Shown: in pieces, positions 11,914 to 31,035 of the stretch
Layout: each line of letters opens with the position of its first letter
Position numbering within the stretch: position 1 is the stretch's first letter
Source of the DNA: Haloparvum sedimenti
GTDB taxonomy: Archaea; Halobacteriota; Halobacteria; Halobacteriales; Haloferacaceae
Assembly (NCBI RefSeq): GCF_001462205.1
Contig: NZ_LKIR01000127.1
Span: 7,525 to 45,495 of the forward strand
Direction of reading: 5' to 3'
DNA: 37,971 nucleotides
Translations under genes and position numbers: made by a program
Notes under the pieces: model-generated
Told to the model about the DNA's origin: nothing
The model's database searches: none
What the model saw: the letters and a program-made list of their open reading frames with translations, nothing else

Positions 11914-13284
11914 ATGAGCAGTCACGAGTACGACGTCGTCGTGGTCGGCGCGGGCACCGCCGGCTGTTACGCCGCGGCGACGATCGCCCGGGAGGGGCTC
12001 GACGTCGTCGTCGTGGAGCGAAAGACCGCCGAGGAGGCGGGCCACATCGCCTGCGGCGACGCGCTCAAAGGGGCCGACGCGTTCCCCGACGCGATCCCCA
12101 AATCGCAGATCGAGTCGGCGTTCACCAACACGGGCGTCGACCACGGCCGCTTCGAGATCCCCTCCGAGGACACGGTCCTGGAGATCCCGGTCCCCGGCGA
12201 ACTCGCGGTCATCGACCGCTGGGAGTACGGCCGCAAGCTCATCGAGGGCGCGGAGAACGCGGGCGTGGAGTTCCACTACGATACCGTCGTCTCCGAGGTG
12301 GAGCAGGCCGACGACGGCACCGTCACCGGGGTTGTCGGCAAGCATCGCGGCGAGGCGGTCACCTACGATGCCGACCTGCTGATCGACGGCGCGGGCGCGC
12401 TCTCGATCCTGCAGGACAAGACCGACTTCGAGGACGCCACCTTCGACACGAACGTCAGCTACTCGCAGTTCTGCTCGGCGTACCGCGAGATCGTCGAGGT
12501 GCCCGAGCCGGTCGAGTGGGACGACGCGCTCGTGTTCAAGCCCACCGAGCGCGCCGCGGGCTACCTCTGGTACTTCCCGCGGACCGACACGACGATCAAC
12601 GCCGGCCTCGGCTTCCAGATGAACGAGGAGCCGATGAAGCTCGTCGACTCGCTGAAGAAGGACCTCCGCGACCGCCCCGAGTTCGAGGGCGCGGAAGTCT
12701 CGGACAAGCTCGGCGCGGCGCTGCCCACCCGGCGCCCGTACGACTCCGCGACCGCGCCGGGGTACATCGCGGTCGGCGACGCGGCCGCCCACGTCAACCC
12801 CACGACCGGCGGCGGCATCGCGGGCGCCGCCTACGCCGGCCAGTACGCCGGCGAGCAGGCGATCGAAGCCCTCAGCGAGGGCGACGTGAGCGAGGACGCG
12901 CTCTGGCGCTACAACGAGCGCGTGATGGACCACTTCGGCGGCCGCTACGCCGCCTTAGACGTGTACAACATCCTCTCGACAGCGGTCGACGTCGACGACC
13001 TGATGGGCCTGCTCGCGTCGCTCCCCGGCGAGAACCTCGCGGAGGCGCTCTACGAGGGCTCCACCTCGATGTCGCTGACGCTGAAGCTGAAGTCCGCGAT
13101 CAAGAGCTTCGGCTACTGGCGCCAGATCTGGAACTTCTACGAGACGAAGCAGCTCGCCGACGAGCTGCTCGCCCACTACGAGTCGTACCCCTCCCACCCC
13201 GACGAGATGGCGCGCTGGACCGAGCAGCGCGACGCGATCATGGAGCGCGTCTACGAGACGACCGGCGCGGACCCGAAGTACTAA
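11914..13284 (+). CDS. Geranylgeranyl reductase family FAD-dependent oxidoreductase
   Basis: 456 residues. FAD binding is shown by Val-Val-Gly-Ala-Gly-Thr-Ala-Gly-Cys-Tyr (residues 10-19) and Val-Gly-Asp-Ala-Ala-Ala-His-Val-Asn-Pro (about 287-296). The motif Gly-Tyr-Leu-Trp-Tyr-Phe-Pro (about 213-219) matches the Tyr-x-Trp-x-Phe-Pro of geranylgeranyl reductases. Such enzymes saturate the prenyl chains of archaeal membrane lipids or of menaquinone. Haloarchaea carry several paralogues, so the exact substrate is not settled. A TATA-like CATAAA near 11875-11880 precedes the ATG. The stop is followed within a few bases by the structured repeat (13288). Confidence 0.9.
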   Translation: MSSHEYDVVVVGAGTAGCYAAATIAREGLDVVVVERKTAEEAGHIACGDALKGADAFPDAIPKSQIESAFTNTGVDHGRFEIPSEDTVLEIPVPGELAVIDRWEYGRKLIEGAENAGVEFHYDTVVSEVEQADDGTVTGVVGKHRGEAVTYDADLLIDGAGALSILQDKTDFEDATFDTNVSYSQFCSAYREIVEVPEPVEWDDALVFKPTERAAGYLWYFPRTDTTINAGLGFQMNEEPMKLVDSLKKDLRDRPEFEGAEVSDKLGAALPTRRPYDSATAPGYIAVGDAAAHVNPTTGGGIAGAAYAGQYAGEQAIEALSEGDVSEDALWRYNERVMDHFGGRYAALDVYNILSTAVDVDDLMGLLASLPGENLAEALYEGSTSMSLTLKLKSAIKSFGYWRQIWNFYETKQLADELLAHYESYPSHPDEMARWTEQRDAIMERVYETTGADPKY

Positions 13285-13287
13285 ACA

Positions 13288-13431
13288 CCGACCTTTTTCT
13301 GCGTCGGGTCGCGGCGGCGCTTCGCGCCGCCTTGACCGCTCCTTGAAAAATGTCGATCAAAAAGGACCGCGGTCGGCGCTGCGGGCGCTTCGCGCCCTCG
13401 CGCCGCCGCGGTACCACGACCCCGACAGAAA
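13288..13431 (+). repeat. Structured intergenic repeat, copy A (inverted partner at 28490-28635)
   Basis: About 144 bp that reappears in reverse orientation at 28490-28635 with only a handful of differences. In order: a small hairpin CCGAC/GTCGG with a T-rich loop; an 8-bp stem GGCGGCGC-TTC-GCGCCGCC; a linker TTGAAAAATGTCGATCAAAA; a long hairpin at 13366-13412 with stems ACCGCGG/CCGCGGT, CGGCG/CGCCG and GGGCGC-TTC-GCGCCC; then GACAGAAA. The would-be small open frame through it (ATG 13350) is put out of frame in copy B by an indel, so it is not a coding repeat. The T5 tract at 13294-13298 may also end the reductase transcript. Gene-free DNA extends from 13285 to 13713. Confidence 0.85.
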
Positions 13432-13444
13432 CCCGCACCGCAAC

Positions 13445-13532
13445 CGCATCAGCACCGTACCGCGACCGCATCAGCATCGTACCGCGACCGCATCAGCATC
13501 GTACCGCGACCGCATCAGCATCGTACCGCGAC
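13445..13532 (+). repeat. 22-bp tandem repeat, four copies
   Basis: Four abutting copies of CGCATCAGCATCGTACCGCGAC; the first copy differs at one base. There are no spacers, so this is not a CRISPR array. It directly follows structured repeat copy A. Copy B is followed by related but degenerate DNA (about 28441-28489). The rest of the gap, 13533-13678, is AT-richer DNA with no gene seen. Confidence 0.9.
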
Positions 13533-13678
13533 CAGAGAACAGAAAACCGCACCGAGAGCGCCCTGTTTCTAGAGAATCGCACGGCTACCACACCTATATC
13601 GCGTCAGAAAACGCTCGTTTCTGTAGCCTTCTCCCAGTCGAGAATTTGCTCCGAGTCGGTCCGCGTCCCGATTCTCCC

Positions 13679-27278: not shown

Positions 27279-27818
27279 TCACAGATACGGCCGCAACACG
27301 GCCCCGTCGTGGAGGTTCTCGGGCACCGCCTCGAACCAGCGCGCCGCCCGGATCGTCTCGCCCTCGACGCCCAGTTCCGCAACCGGCGGAATGGCTCCTT
27401 CGGCGGTCGCCGCGAGGACGTAGCACTCGCCGCGGTACGCGACCGCGTCCTCGACAACGTCCCCGGCCGACGCGTCCGGGGGCACGTCCGCGCTGGAGAC
27501 GTACAGCTGATCGAGCACGACGAGTCGGTCCCCGACGACCGCCTCCAGCGCGGTCTCCTCGCGGACCTCGCGCGCGGCCGCCTCCGCGAGCGTCTCGCCT
27601 GGTTCCACGCCGCCGCCCGGGAGCGTCCATCCCTCCGACCAGCCGTTCTTGACGAGCGCGATGCGACCCGCGGGGTCCAGCACTCGCGCCGCGACCGCCC
27701 GCGCCGTGCCCTCGGTCGCCCACGCCTCGAACTTCGTGAGTCGATCCGGGTCGACCCGGATCAGGTGCGGTTCGCGCGGCGCGTCGGCGTCCGCGGCGTC
27801 ACCGTCCACCCCCGTCAC
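27279..27818 (-). CDS. Nudix hydrolase
   Basis: 179 residues, starting at a GTG that overlaps the cupin stop by 4 nt (GTGA), so the two are translationally coupled. Nudix enzymes cleave nucleoside diphosphates linked to another group. The Nudix box is at about 67-91: [10 protein letters not shown] then Ala-Arg-Glu-Val-Arg-Glu-Glu-Thr-Ala. The last conserved glycine is replaced by Ala (Glu-Glu-Thr-Ala instead of Glu-Glu-Thr-Gly), a mild deviation that need not remove activity, as both metal-binding Glu residues remain. The conserved Trp-Thr-Leu-Pro-Gly-Gly-Gly precedes it. Substrate is unknown. Only the GTG start fits the operon spacing. Confidence 0.9.
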
Positions 27819-28300
27819 GGCTCCTCGTCCTCCCAGTAGTCGACGTCGTCGTCGATCCGGTAGTAGCCCGACAGCGAGCGCGCCTCCTCGCTCCCGGGCG
27901 GCGCGCCGGCGTAGACGCCGAACTTCTCCGAGTCGGGGTAAACCGTCACGTCCGGTTCGTTCATCGTGGACATCGCGAGGTAGCGGACCGGCTCCTCGCC
28001 GTCGTTGACGACGCGGTGGCCGCCGGATTCGTCGGCGGGGAACGCGACGTAATCGCCGGCCTCGATCGGGATCGGTTCCTCGGGCGTCCGGAGCGTTCCC
28101 GACCCGGCGAGGACGTAGATCGCCTCCTCGTTGCCGGCGTGGTAGTGATAGGGCCACGACTTCGCGCCGGCGGGGAGTTCGTAGAGGCTACAGCCGATCT
28201 CCTCGCCGTCCGCGGCCGCGGCGAGACGCTTGCGGCGGAACGGCGGGTCGCCGCGGTCGCCCGCCTCCCAGTCGAGGTCGGCCTCGTTGACGGGGTCCAT
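27815..28300 (-). CDS. Cupin-domain protein
   Basis: 161 residues. The double-stranded beta-helix carries cupin motif 1 at about 51-66 ([14 protein letters not shown]) with His52, His54 and Glu58/59 as metal ligands, and motif 2 near 82-97 (Gly-Asp-Tyr-Val-Ala-Phe-Pro-Ala-Asp, then Gly-Gly-His). This combination resembles cupins of unknown substrate in haloarchaea. It starts at ATG 28300, 27 nt after the TATA-like TTTTGC (minus strand), and is followed by the overlapping Nudix gene. The two may act in one pathway; which cannot be seen. Confidence 0.9.
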
Positions 28301-28330: not shown

Positions 28331-28489
28331 CCTTCTCCCGTTCGAGAGTTCGCGACCGCCGCGACGCTCGACACGAACGCGGTCGACAGGACCGGTAACG
28401 GGAGCGGGCCGAGAACCACGCATTGATCGTGCCTTGGCGGGAGGCGGTTTGGTGCGGTGCTGAGGCGGTGTGGTGCAGTACTGTGGCAG

Positions 28490-28635
28490 TTTCTGTCAAG
28501 ATTGTGGTACCGCGGCGGCGCGAGGGCGCGAAGCGCCCGGAGCGCCGACCGCGGCCCCTTTTTGATCGACATTTTTCAAGGACGGGTGAGCGCGGCGCGA
28601 AGCGCCGCCGCGAACCCGACGCAGAAAAAGGTCGG
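28490..28635 (-). repeat. Structured intergenic repeat, copy B (inverted partner of 13288-13431)
   Basis: About 146 bp, the reverse complement of copy A with roughly a dozen differences including three small indels. All three hairpins are kept: CCGAC/GTCGG, the GCGGCGC-TTC-GCGCCGC stem, and the long three-part hairpin, where the outer A-U pair of copy A becomes a G-U pair. It ends 12 nt before the helicase ATG (28648). The flank 28441-28489 has degenerate repeats like the 22-bp array of copy A. Confidence 0.85.
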
Positions 28636-28647
28636 GGCACAGTCGTT

Positions 28648-31035
28648 ATGCCGGTCCGTGCCCGACCGGGAGGTATCGTGGAGACGGGAGACGACGTCGT
28701 CGACTGGTTGCGCTCGCGGCCCTACTACGAGGGACAGATCGCTGAGCATCGCCGGGTGCCGGGCCGGGAACCCTCGTTCGCGGACGTGGACCTGGAGCCG
28801 CGGCTGGCGGACGCGCTCGCCGACCGCGGGATAGACAAGTTGTACGAACATCAGGCCGAGGCCATCGAGGCGGTCCGCGACGGGAAGGACGCGGTTATCG
28901 CCACCGAGACCGCGAGCGGGAAGTCGCTGGCGTACACGGTCCCCGCCTTCGAGAACGCGATGGACCACGGCGGGCGGACGCTGTATCTCGGCCCGCAGAA
29001 CGCCCTCATCTCCGACCAGGAGGAGACGCTGTCGGCGCTGGCCGGCGATCTGGGATTCGGGAGCCGGGTGTCGGTCGACACCTACACCGGCAGACTGTCG
29101 AAGTCGGAGAAGCGTGACGTTCGGGATCGGCGGCCGACGGTCCTGCTGTCGAACCCGGACATGCTGCACTACGCGCTGTTGCCGTACGGCTACCGGCTCT
29201 GGGAGTGGTTCTTCTCCTCGTTAGAGCTGGTCGTGATCGACGAGGTCCACAACTACCGCGGCGTGTTCGGGTCGGGCGTCGCGCTCGCGCTGCGGCGGCT
29301 CAACAGGCTCTGTGAGCGGTTCGGTGCGGACCCCCAGTACGTCTGCTGTTCCGCGACCATCGGGAATCCGGTCGAGCACGCCGCGACTGTCACCGGCCGG
29401 CCGGAGGGAAACTTCGCGCTCGTGGACGAGGACGCCTCGGGACGCGGGCCGCGCGACTGGGTGCTGTGGAACCCGCCGGAGTACGACGACGACTGGCAGG
29501 AGCGCGGGAGCGGGCGCCGGAAGTCGAGCCACACCGAGACGAAGCGGCTGTTCGTGGATCTGGTCCAGCAGGGCCACCAGACGCTGACGTTCACGCGGGC
29601 GCGTCAGACGGCGGAACAGTACGCGACGGACAGCGCGGACGACCTCCGCGACCGCGGCGAGCGGGAGCTGGCCGGCAAGGTCGGCGCGTATCAGGCGGCG
29701 CTCAAAGACGACACGCGTCGCGACCTCGAGGCACGGCTACACGACGGCGACCTCCGCGGCGTCTGGTCGACCAACGCGCTGGAACTCGGCGTGGACGTGG
29801 GGGGACTCGACGCGGTCCTCATGGACGGCTACCCCGGAACCCGGATGAACACGTTCCAGCAGGCCGGCCGCGCGGGCCGCGGTGACGACCCCGCGCTCGT
29901 GGTGCTGGTCGGCGGCGAGGACCAGCTCGATCAGTACCTGCTGTCCAACCCCGAGGACCTCTTCGAGGCGCCGCCGGAGGACGCCATCTGCGACCCGGAG
30001 AACGACCAGCTCCTCCCGCGCCACGTCGCCTGCGCGGCCGACGAGAACTGGCTCGCGCCGAGGGACCGCGACCACTTCGGCGACGAGTTCCCCGGGATCG
30101 TCGCGGAGTTCACCGAGAACGGCGTGCTCGACCGTCGCGAGACGCGGGATGGGACGCGCTGGACGTTCAACGGCGACGCGAGCCCGCAGCACGAGATGAA
30201 CCTGCGGACCGCCGAGGAGCGCGAGGTGGACCTGATCGACACCGGTCGCAACGAGACGGTCGCCTCGCTCGGACTCTCGGACGCGATGCGCGACGCCCAT
30301 CCGGGCGCCATCTACCATCAGCAGGGCCGCACCTACGAGGTGACGAAGCTGGACCTCAACCGCGACGTGGCGGAGCTGTCGACGACGTGGGCCGACTACT
30401 ACACGCAGGTCCTCACCGAGAAGGACGTTGTCGTGAACGAGGACCTCGACGAGCGTCCGCTCTCCGCGCGGCCGGACACCCCGGTCCGGTTCGCGGACGT
30501 GACCGTTACCGAGCGCGTGACGGGGTTCGAGCGCCGCGACTCCTCGACCGGCGAATCGCTGGGACAGAAGACGCTCGACCTCCCCGAGACGACCCTCCGC
30601 ACGCGGGCGCTCTACTTCCCGGTTCCGGAGGACGTGGAGACGGACATGCGTGCTGACCACGGCGAGCACGGCTTCAATGGCGGCATTCACGCGGCCGAGC
30701 ACGGCGTCATCTCGCTTTTCCCCTTTCACCTGCTGTGTGACCGCTCGGACGTGGGCGGTCTCTCGACGCCGTATCACCCCCACACCGACGCCGCAACCGT
30801 CTTCGTCTACGACGGGTATCCCGGCGGCGTCGGACTGACGCGGCGGGGGTTCGAGCGCGTCGAGGAGCTGTTCGCGCGGACGGCCCGACTCATCGAGGGG
30901 TGCGACTGCACGGACGGCTGTCCCGCGTGCGTCCAGTCGCCCCACTGCGGCAACGCGAACGAGCCGCTGGCGAAGGCGCCCGCGACGCAGCTCCTGTACC
31001 GACTCGTCGACGCGCCCAGTCCGGCCGCGGATTGA
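28648..31035 (+). CDS. DEAD/DEAH-box helicase with C-terminal DUF1998 (MrfA-like)
   Basis: 795 residues. It is a superfamily 2 helicase of the YprA/MrfA type, known in Bacillus for repair of mitomycin C damage. Walker A is Thr-Ala-Ser-Gly-Lys-Ser (88-93), Walker B is Val-Ile-Asp-Glu-Val-His (about 192-197), motif III is Cys-Ser-Ala-Thr-Ile, and motif VI is Gln-Gln-Ala-Gly-Arg-Ala-Gly-Arg. The C-terminal Cys cluster Cys-Asp-Cys-Thr-Asp-Gly-Cys-Pro-Ala-Cys, with a further Cys in Ser-Pro-His-Cys-Gly, is the zinc site seen in MrfA-like proteins. ATG 28648 is chosen because the frame upstream runs through the structured repeat. The promoter must lie in or next to that repeat (a GCAGAAAAAGG run is near). 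Confidence 0.92.
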   Translation: MPVRARPGGIVETGDDVVDWLRSRPYYEGQIAEHRRVPGREPSFADVDLEPRLADALADRGIDKLYEHQAEAIEAVRDGKDAVIATETASGKSLAYTVPAFENAMDHGGRTLYLGPQNALISDQEETLSALAGDLGFGSRVSVDTYTGRLSKSEKRDVRDRRPTVLLSNPDMLHYALLPYGYRLWEWFFSSLELVVIDEVHNYRGVFGSGVALALRRLNRLCERFGADPQYVCCSATIGNPVEHAATVTGRPEGNFALVDEDASGRGPRDWVLWNPPEYDDDWQERGSGRRKSSHTETKRLFVDLVQQGHQTLTFTRARQTAEQYATDSADDLRDRGERELAGKVGAYQAALKDDTRRDLEARLHDGDLRGVWSTNALELGVDVGGLDAVLMDGYPGTRMNTFQQAGRAGRGDDPALVVLVGGEDQLDQYLLSNPEDLFEAPPEDAICDPENDQLLPRHVACAADENWLAPRDRDHFGDEFPGIVAEFTENGVLDRRETRDGTRWTFNGDASPQHEMNLRTAEEREVDLIDTGRNETVASLGLSDAMRDAHPGAIYHQQGRTYEVTKLDLNRDVAELSTTWADYYTQVLTEKDVVVNEDLDERPLSARPDTPVRFADVTVTERVTGFERRDSSTGESLGQKTLDLPETTLRTRALYFPVPEDVETDMRADHGEHGFNGGIHAAEHGVISLFPFHLLCDRSDVGGLSTPYHPHTDAATVFVYDGYPGGVGLTRRGFERVEELFARTARLIEGCDCTDGCPACVQSPHCGNANEPLAKAPATQLLYRLVDAPSPAAD

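Follow-up and report, generated by a model that had tools for sequence, protein, structure and literature searches.

A dispersed, structured intergenic repeat of the Halobacteria, a proposed two-way transcription terminator at gene ends

Haloarchaeal transcripts end at T stretches that finish at a C, and in a reporter assay with Haloferax volcanii 95% of transcripts were terminated by T5C (PMC7237163); archaeal T-stretch terminators are used with the factor aCPSF1/FttA (PMC7515710, PMC8716108). Short dispersed repeats are described from Haloquadratum walsbyi (PMC3119063): SMR (~80–110 bp, mobilisation unexplained) are bounded by terminal inverted repeats, PATEs correspond to IS605 ends, neither of the two duplicating its target, and MITEs share the ends of a transposon. 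The element analysed here resembles the H. volcanii terminator in having TTTTTC a few nt past stop codons, in intergenic DNA; it differs in carrying T5 on both strands, within a covarying hairpin module with conserved inner letters, and, unlike ordinary T stretches, which are not repeats, it is repeated by descent or copying. With SMR, PATEs and MITEs it shares being short, transposase-free, palindromic and dispersed in a haloarchaeon, but only one of its ends is constant, the other varying, the direct repeats beside it are long, and it is found at gene ends class-wide, not inside other mobile elements. Bacterial REP/BIME sequences are likewise dispersed extragenic palindromes at gene 3′ ends, in tandem clusters and with suggested termination roles; compared with them, the element is longer (75–140 bp versus 20–40), has another sequence and structure, shows no GTAG/CGTC tag and has no identified RAYT-type partner. 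Integron attC sites resemble it only as hairpins after stop codons with a variable apex, the genes flanking the element being housekeeping genes.

The window (the whole stretch analysed, 37,971 nt of Haloparvum sedimenti DNA) contains two inverted copies of the element, A (13288–13431, + strand) and B (28490–28635, element on the − strand). As the preliminary description had stated, they are nearly identical and opposite, with about a dozen differences and small indels over ~145 bp (91% identity over query positions 9–153 by BLAST), and copy A follows directly on the stop of a reductase gene, starting 4 nt after position 13284. Two exact occurrences of the 23-base centre CTTGAAAAATGTCGATCAAAAAG are present in the window, and none in 100 shuffles. 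Copies were compared in two alignments. The first, A3, is a 28-sequence MAFFT alignment of family matches and the window copies, with rows picked by BLAST similarity and not by motif; the covariance model made with it, R1, covers the left half of the element (~75 nt) and gives rough E-values. The rows of the second, A4 (99 distinct copies), were fitted to the covariance model, and the MAFFT alignment A3 agrees with it. The main features in the window are as follows.

11914–13284, + strand: FAD-dependent oxidoreductase gene (Pfam FAD_binding_3, 6.5e-14), stop 4 nt before copy A; geranylgeranyl-reductase subtype by inference.
13289–13365, + strand: conserved core of copy A (covariance model match 77.2 bits, E 2.3e-15 in the window).
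13289–13299, + strand: 5′ arm of stem P1 of copy A, with the + strand T5C at 13294–13299 (sequence, A3/A4, single-sequence fold).
13307–13337, + strand: apical stem P3 of copy A, a freely varying, strongly covarying hairpin (alignments A3/A4).
13345–13355, + strand: 3′ arm of P1 of copy A, GAAAAATGTCG, read as T5C on the − strand (sequence, alignment A4, fold).
13367–13411, + strand: second hairpin, hp2, of copy A (CCGCGGTCGGCGC..TTCG..CCGCCGCGG; BLAST, fold), common to most own-genome copies.
13433–13533, + strand: tandem tail of copy A, ACCGCATCAGC(A)-type with a 22-bp period; similar tails follow most own-genome copies.
27815–28300, − strand: cupin gene flanking copy B on its other side and divergent from the helicase gene.
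28441–28492, − strand: tandem tail of copy B, 21-bp period.
28510–28554, − strand: hp2 of copy B (sequence, single-sequence fold).
28553–28634, − strand: conserved core of copy B (covariance model match 65.6 bits, E 8.8e-13).
28678–31035, + strand: DEAD-box helicase gene with MrfA Zn-binding domain, after copy B (GTG 28678 by score; ATG 28648 possible).

Each copy has a ~77-bp core followed by the G+C-rich hp2 and, after a short linker, by degenerate tandem repeats of 21/22 bp; this tail lies on the right of both copies and takes the repeat beyond the limits of A and B given above. The core reads CGACC-TTTTTC-TGCGTCGGGT-(hairpin P3)-ACCGCTCCTTGAAAAATGTCG-ATC-AAAAAGG; stem P1 is formed by CGACCTTTTTC paired with GAAAAATGTCG, and P3 stands on top of it. 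Both copies are predicted to form nested hairpins, in agreement with the hairpins noticed earlier; relative to shuffled sequence, the z-scores lie between −2.9 and −4.2 whichever strand is folded. They had also been taken to be non-coding, and this stands: a coding reading was rejected, since indels shift the frame between the copies and what is conserved are stems and T5 tracts.

In A3, 95.8% of the pair cells are standard, and 54 cells show a double change compared with 20 in shuffles; controls in which the pairing was slid collapse. In A4, the proportion of paired cells is 98.6% and there are 192 double-change cells against 68 in shuffles, a count reached in none of 500 shuffles. Because the stems covary so strongly, we take the hairpins to be real. 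P3 positions pass through G-C, C-G, U-A and A-U, and the second pair of P1 alternates between G-C and C-G (CGACC/..CG and CCACC/..GG) next to a T5/A5 block without variation. In A3, which was selected by BLAST, T5 is invariant or nearly so on both strands, as are, nearly, the inner-loop letters TCG-GGT and ACC-N-CTC. In P3, G·U outnumbers A·C by 59 to 14 cells (P = 1e-7 if the cells are independent); this is a hint of a function as folded RNA of the + strand, an excess that related copies or strand-biased mutation could mimic.

In its own genome (3.24 Mb), the element is found by BLAST with copy A at ~25 places on eleven contigs (E 1e-17 or better), which, apart from the query copy, are 83–96% identical to copy A and in some cases lie in tandem; the covariance model gives 25 matches, and about 20 to 25 copies can be counted overall. 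Among them P3 occurs in several compensated versions, whereas hp2 and the ACCGCATCAGC-type tail are common to most. DNA comparison alone (BLAST) detected a match, nearly always over the core, in 26 of 170 genomes of the family. The core modelled by R1, C[G/C]ACC-TTTTTC...TCGGGT-variable hairpin-ACCNCTC...GAAAAA...[C/G]G, was found in 110 of the 167 family genomes searched and, across the class Halobacteria, in 340 of 391 genomes and 84 of 86 genera (up to 12 matches listed per genome). In a phylum sample, the best R1 match outside the Halobacteria had an E-value of 1.7e-4, which for some 200 genomes is noise. A pattern scan of named genomes returned at least 80 loci, all haloarchaeal among the matches listed, in Haloarcula, Haloferax, Halorubrum, Halobium, Halogranum, Halorientalis, Natronomonas, Halomarina, Halococcus and other genera. 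The pattern used for these 80 loci was strict and itself holds T5C on both strands, so that counts of T5C among them are circular. The named genomes do not contain the exact 24-base centre that the window copies have, because relatives differ at that place. The same scan gave no match among viral contigs, which leaves a virus-borne origin without support. Searching Rfam (release 15) gave no match at the gathering score in the window; nine loci yielded just two matches, both attributable to chance, as they scored below threshold and lay outside the element; no published description was found in the literature searched, where subscription journals are poorly covered. The pair had been described as perhaps a dispersed non-coding element of the lineage, to be given up if related genomes held no copies or if the stems did not covary. 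Copies and covariation were both found, and the many intergenic copies and the class-wide presence bear the description out.

For the 80 named loci and the window's genome, genes were called with a simple home-made codon-usage caller, which places starts approximately. Of 87 copies for which both neighbouring genes were called, 35 lie between two gene tails, 27 have a start on the left and a tail on the right, 19 a tail on the left and a start on the right and 6 lie between two starts; since the selecting pattern was strict and contained T5C, context counts from the named loci describe the best-conserved copies. The corresponding numbers for 360 other intergenic gaps of the same loci are 68, 90, 82 and 120, the two one-tail classes being mirror images for element-free gaps. 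Accordingly, at least one gene tail faces 81 of 87 copies versus 240 of 360 other gaps (P = 1e-7), tail-to-tail gaps are enriched (35/87 versus 68/360, P = 6e-5) and divergent promoter pairs are avoided (6/87 versus 120/360); the P values of this analysis are overstated, as genomes and copies are not independent. The left edge is flush in 79 of 90 distinct copies: it lies ≤11 nt after a stop codon (32 copies), directly after a tRNA (3), 30–65 nt before a start codon, at the outer promoter edge (21), or against a duplicated piece of the right gene's 3′ end (23). The stop and promoter classes account for 53 of 64 copies compared with 14% under random placement (P ~1e-34, for copies that are not fully independent). 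The part of this flushness that concerns stop codons is not peculiar to the element, given that 41% of ordinary haloarchaeal T5 sites lie within 20 nt of a stop codon. Within the window's genome, most copies are 0–6 nt after stops or 38–43 nt before starts. Loci in which the element begins directly at a tRNA 3′ end (Ser, Arg) are L133, L110, L182 and, judged by eye, L125.

A role as promoter or attenuator towards the gene on the other side, also proposed at the outset, finds no support in these positions: a left edge that faces a start keeps clear of the promoter region (main cluster at 33–61 nt), and a right edge is separated from the start that it faces by ≥62 nt, mostly by >140 nt. This spacing bears on the helicase gene too. 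Copy B had been placed 12 nt before its start, which holds for ATG 28648 only; the in-frame GTG 28678, preferred by the gene caller, is 43 nt away, a gap that agrees with the 33–61 nt found for other copies.

The genes to the left of the element include those for the large and small subunits of DNA polymerase D, MenB, CDC48, KorB, EF-2, RadA, PhoU and geranylgeranyl reductase (named by reading the sequences; a family search was made for the window gene only), and the same orthologous gene (PolD large and small subunits, MenB, CDC48, EF-2, RadA and others) is accompanied by the element in different genera. At radA, it is present in only 3–4 of 30 genomes; a conserved position was therefore rejected, and recurrence after the same gene is sporadic, not universal.

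On this sequence evidence, we propose that the element is a dispersed, non-coding, structured repeat of the Halobacteria, serving as an insulator and as a portable terminator of transcription from both sides, a reading to which we assign a probability of roughly 60%. The archaeal signal, T5 followed by C just past a gene end, is present (13294–13299 in copy A): the + strand carries T5C immediately past the left gene, and the − strand has one or two T5 tracts that follow one or two G+C-rich hairpins. Tracts of this kind on both strands suggest that the element ends transcripts from both sides and shields a neighbouring promoter, and termination from either side is probable. It was first described as perhaps a terminator, and placement at gene ends together with T5C on both strands supports that idea well. 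Only 39 of 397 gene ends (10%) without the element have a T5 within 150 nt, so that the element would supply a signal most genes lack. Polymerase arriving from the left would stop at the left T5C, a few nt past the stop codon; polymerase from the right would come to the T5 tract or tracts after crossing one or two G+C-rich hairpins, and would thereby be kept out of the neighbouring gene or its promoter. Release at the U-tract would be brought about by the archaeal factor aCPSF1/FttA, and copies would arise by insertion or local duplication with a break point regularly at the element's left end. Against termination, the inner-loop letters TCGGGT and ACCNCTC are stricter than a T-tract terminator needs, and neither they nor the G·U excess of P3 is explained by it. 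Copy B, too, is poorly explained: its neighbours, the cupin and helicase genes, diverge and no gene transcript enters it. It may catch antisense transcripts or be neutral.

Should this reading hold, a multi-copy regulatory repeat, so far undescribed, would be common to nearly all haloarchaea, marking gene borders in a way that is legible in the sequence itself. Operon and 3′-end annotation would improve, haloarchaeal genetics would gain a ready two-way terminator part, and the question would arise how a 75–140 bp element without a known enzyme keeps reaching the same type of site. The copies behind the genes for EF-2, RadA and DNA polymerase D ease a functional test.

The alternative that survives best is that the element is mainly a selfish, non-autonomous mobile repeat, as are the Haloquadratum MITEs, PATEs and SMR, for which gene ends are harmless sites and termination is a by-product. 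Dispersed own-genome copies that are ~85–95% identical would be expected of such a repeat, and congeners differ in the occupancy of sites. A Haloferax site with a direct repeat is filled in 8 species (H. larsenii, H. elongans and further species, L219–L223), once, in G036, by a tandem double copy, and empty in 2 (G032, G034); since the filled site, present also in H. larsenii and H. elongans, looks old, recombination between the repeats may have removed the element from the empty pair. At a Haloarcula site filled in H. rara, a 129-bp insert lies between gene-end repeats of 93 bp (91/93 identical); the site is empty in three other species (G420, G634, G635), and at other places in these genomes the 129 bp occur again by themselves. 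In 25 of 95 copies, the 3′ end of the right gene is repeated to the left of the element over 34 to ~145 bp, the left repeat ending 0–9 nt before the core. A piece of the element's right hairpin is contained in several left repeats, so insertion with target duplication and local duplication at a filled site are indistinguishable; simple target-site duplication as the whole story is weakened by this and by the apparent age of the filled Haloferax site, and such repeats fit local duplication better. The mobile reading is also faced with a right end that is variable and with the lack of a transposase and of terminal inverted repeats. The inverted repeat present (P1) closes the left half only, and flanking repeats of ~35–145 bp are not the short, fixed-length target duplications of MITEs; nor does the SMR combination of terminal inverted repeats without target duplication apply. 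As for enzymes, one constant end, a variable other end and long variable duplications suggested SINE-like reverse transcription, which was dropped when a search for the reverse transcriptase RVT_1 (PF00078) was empty in all 52 genomes of genus g21, several of which have 6–15 copies. Descent from PATEs or IS200/IS605, which would leave no target duplication, does not suit the long direct repeats, and the Y1 transposase (Y1_Tnp) of these elements was rejected as mobiliser, its presence not tracking copy number; it is absent from G104 and G110, which are rich in the element (9–10 copies). The strong covariation points to use by the host, as does the recurrence after the same genes, and we regard a mainly selfish repeat as unlikely. 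With its variable right end, its long variable repeats and neither inverted ends nor an enzyme, we rate the element as a dispersed palindromic repeat used at gene ends, outside the described mobile families.

The two-way terminator and mobility might be combined. In a tentative proposal of this kind, rather doubtful as a whole, a class-wide structured DNA copies itself by an undescribed route free of transposase and reverse transcriptase, always breaks at its left end, leaves gene-end duplications of 35–145 bp and has been co-opted as a two-way terminator and insulator of housekeeping genes. A sudden change in copy number within g21, where 9–15 copies at E 0.01 (G104, G108, G110, G115) stand against 0 (G118, G132, G141, G146), would permit a search for a partner gene by presence and absence. 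This genus appears to include Halorubrum sp. CBA1125 (G144 and L120 share a match).

We consider it improbable that the element acts chiefly as a folded RNA of the + strand, either a 3′-UTR structure or a small RNA with a role in stability, processing or protein binding. Such a role would account for strict internal-loop letters around a covarying stem, for the excess of G·U over A·C in P3 and for whole-element folds below the shuffled energy, but the fold z-scores are equally good on the other strand and the G·U excess could result from strand-biased C-to-T change or shared ancestry. Moreover, the leading T5C of the + strand should end the left gene's transcript before the fold forms, and 27 of 87 copies are read into only from the right, on the − strand. 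Least probable is a DNA site for cutting and joining, its hairpin recognised as in attC, REP or IS200/IS605 ends and its left edge being the recombination point: the constant junction of that edge with unrelated gene ends, tRNA ends and duplicated gene pieces, the frequent tandem arrays (L105, L130, L137, L161, L227) and the variable apical hairpin above conserved mismatched inner positions would suit it, but no enzyme was identified, the flanking genes are housekeeping genes and not cassettes, and two element-rich genomes lack the Y1 transposase.

Tandem arrays were seen in L105 (three copies with a 142-bp period), L137, L130, L161, L140, L184 and L227, and in the window's own genome at C117:36730–37037 and C49:44544–44797; in most, the repeating unit combines core and hairpins with the neighbouring gene's 3′ end. 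Additional perfect hairpins, from one to four, occupy a single inner position of the core in L108, L110, L123, L126, L158, L164 (3190), L166 and L175, mostly between GAAAAACGTC and the second A5, and in the own genome (C32:211165–211357, L020/L028) extra hairpins follow ACCGCT and precede CCTTGAA; all these resemble small hairpins that were inserted into the element itself. In L138, L144 and L155, the gene that precedes the element, for the PolD large subunit (>1100 codons), looks intein-interrupted by eye, with the intein-like stretch in the C-terminal half. Finally, many of the haloarchaeal hairpins in or around the element (L121–L186), for example GCGCTCGCTTCGCTCGCGC, share a tandem T·C/C·T mismatch (5′-TC/5′-TC), which sits two to four pairs below the loop.
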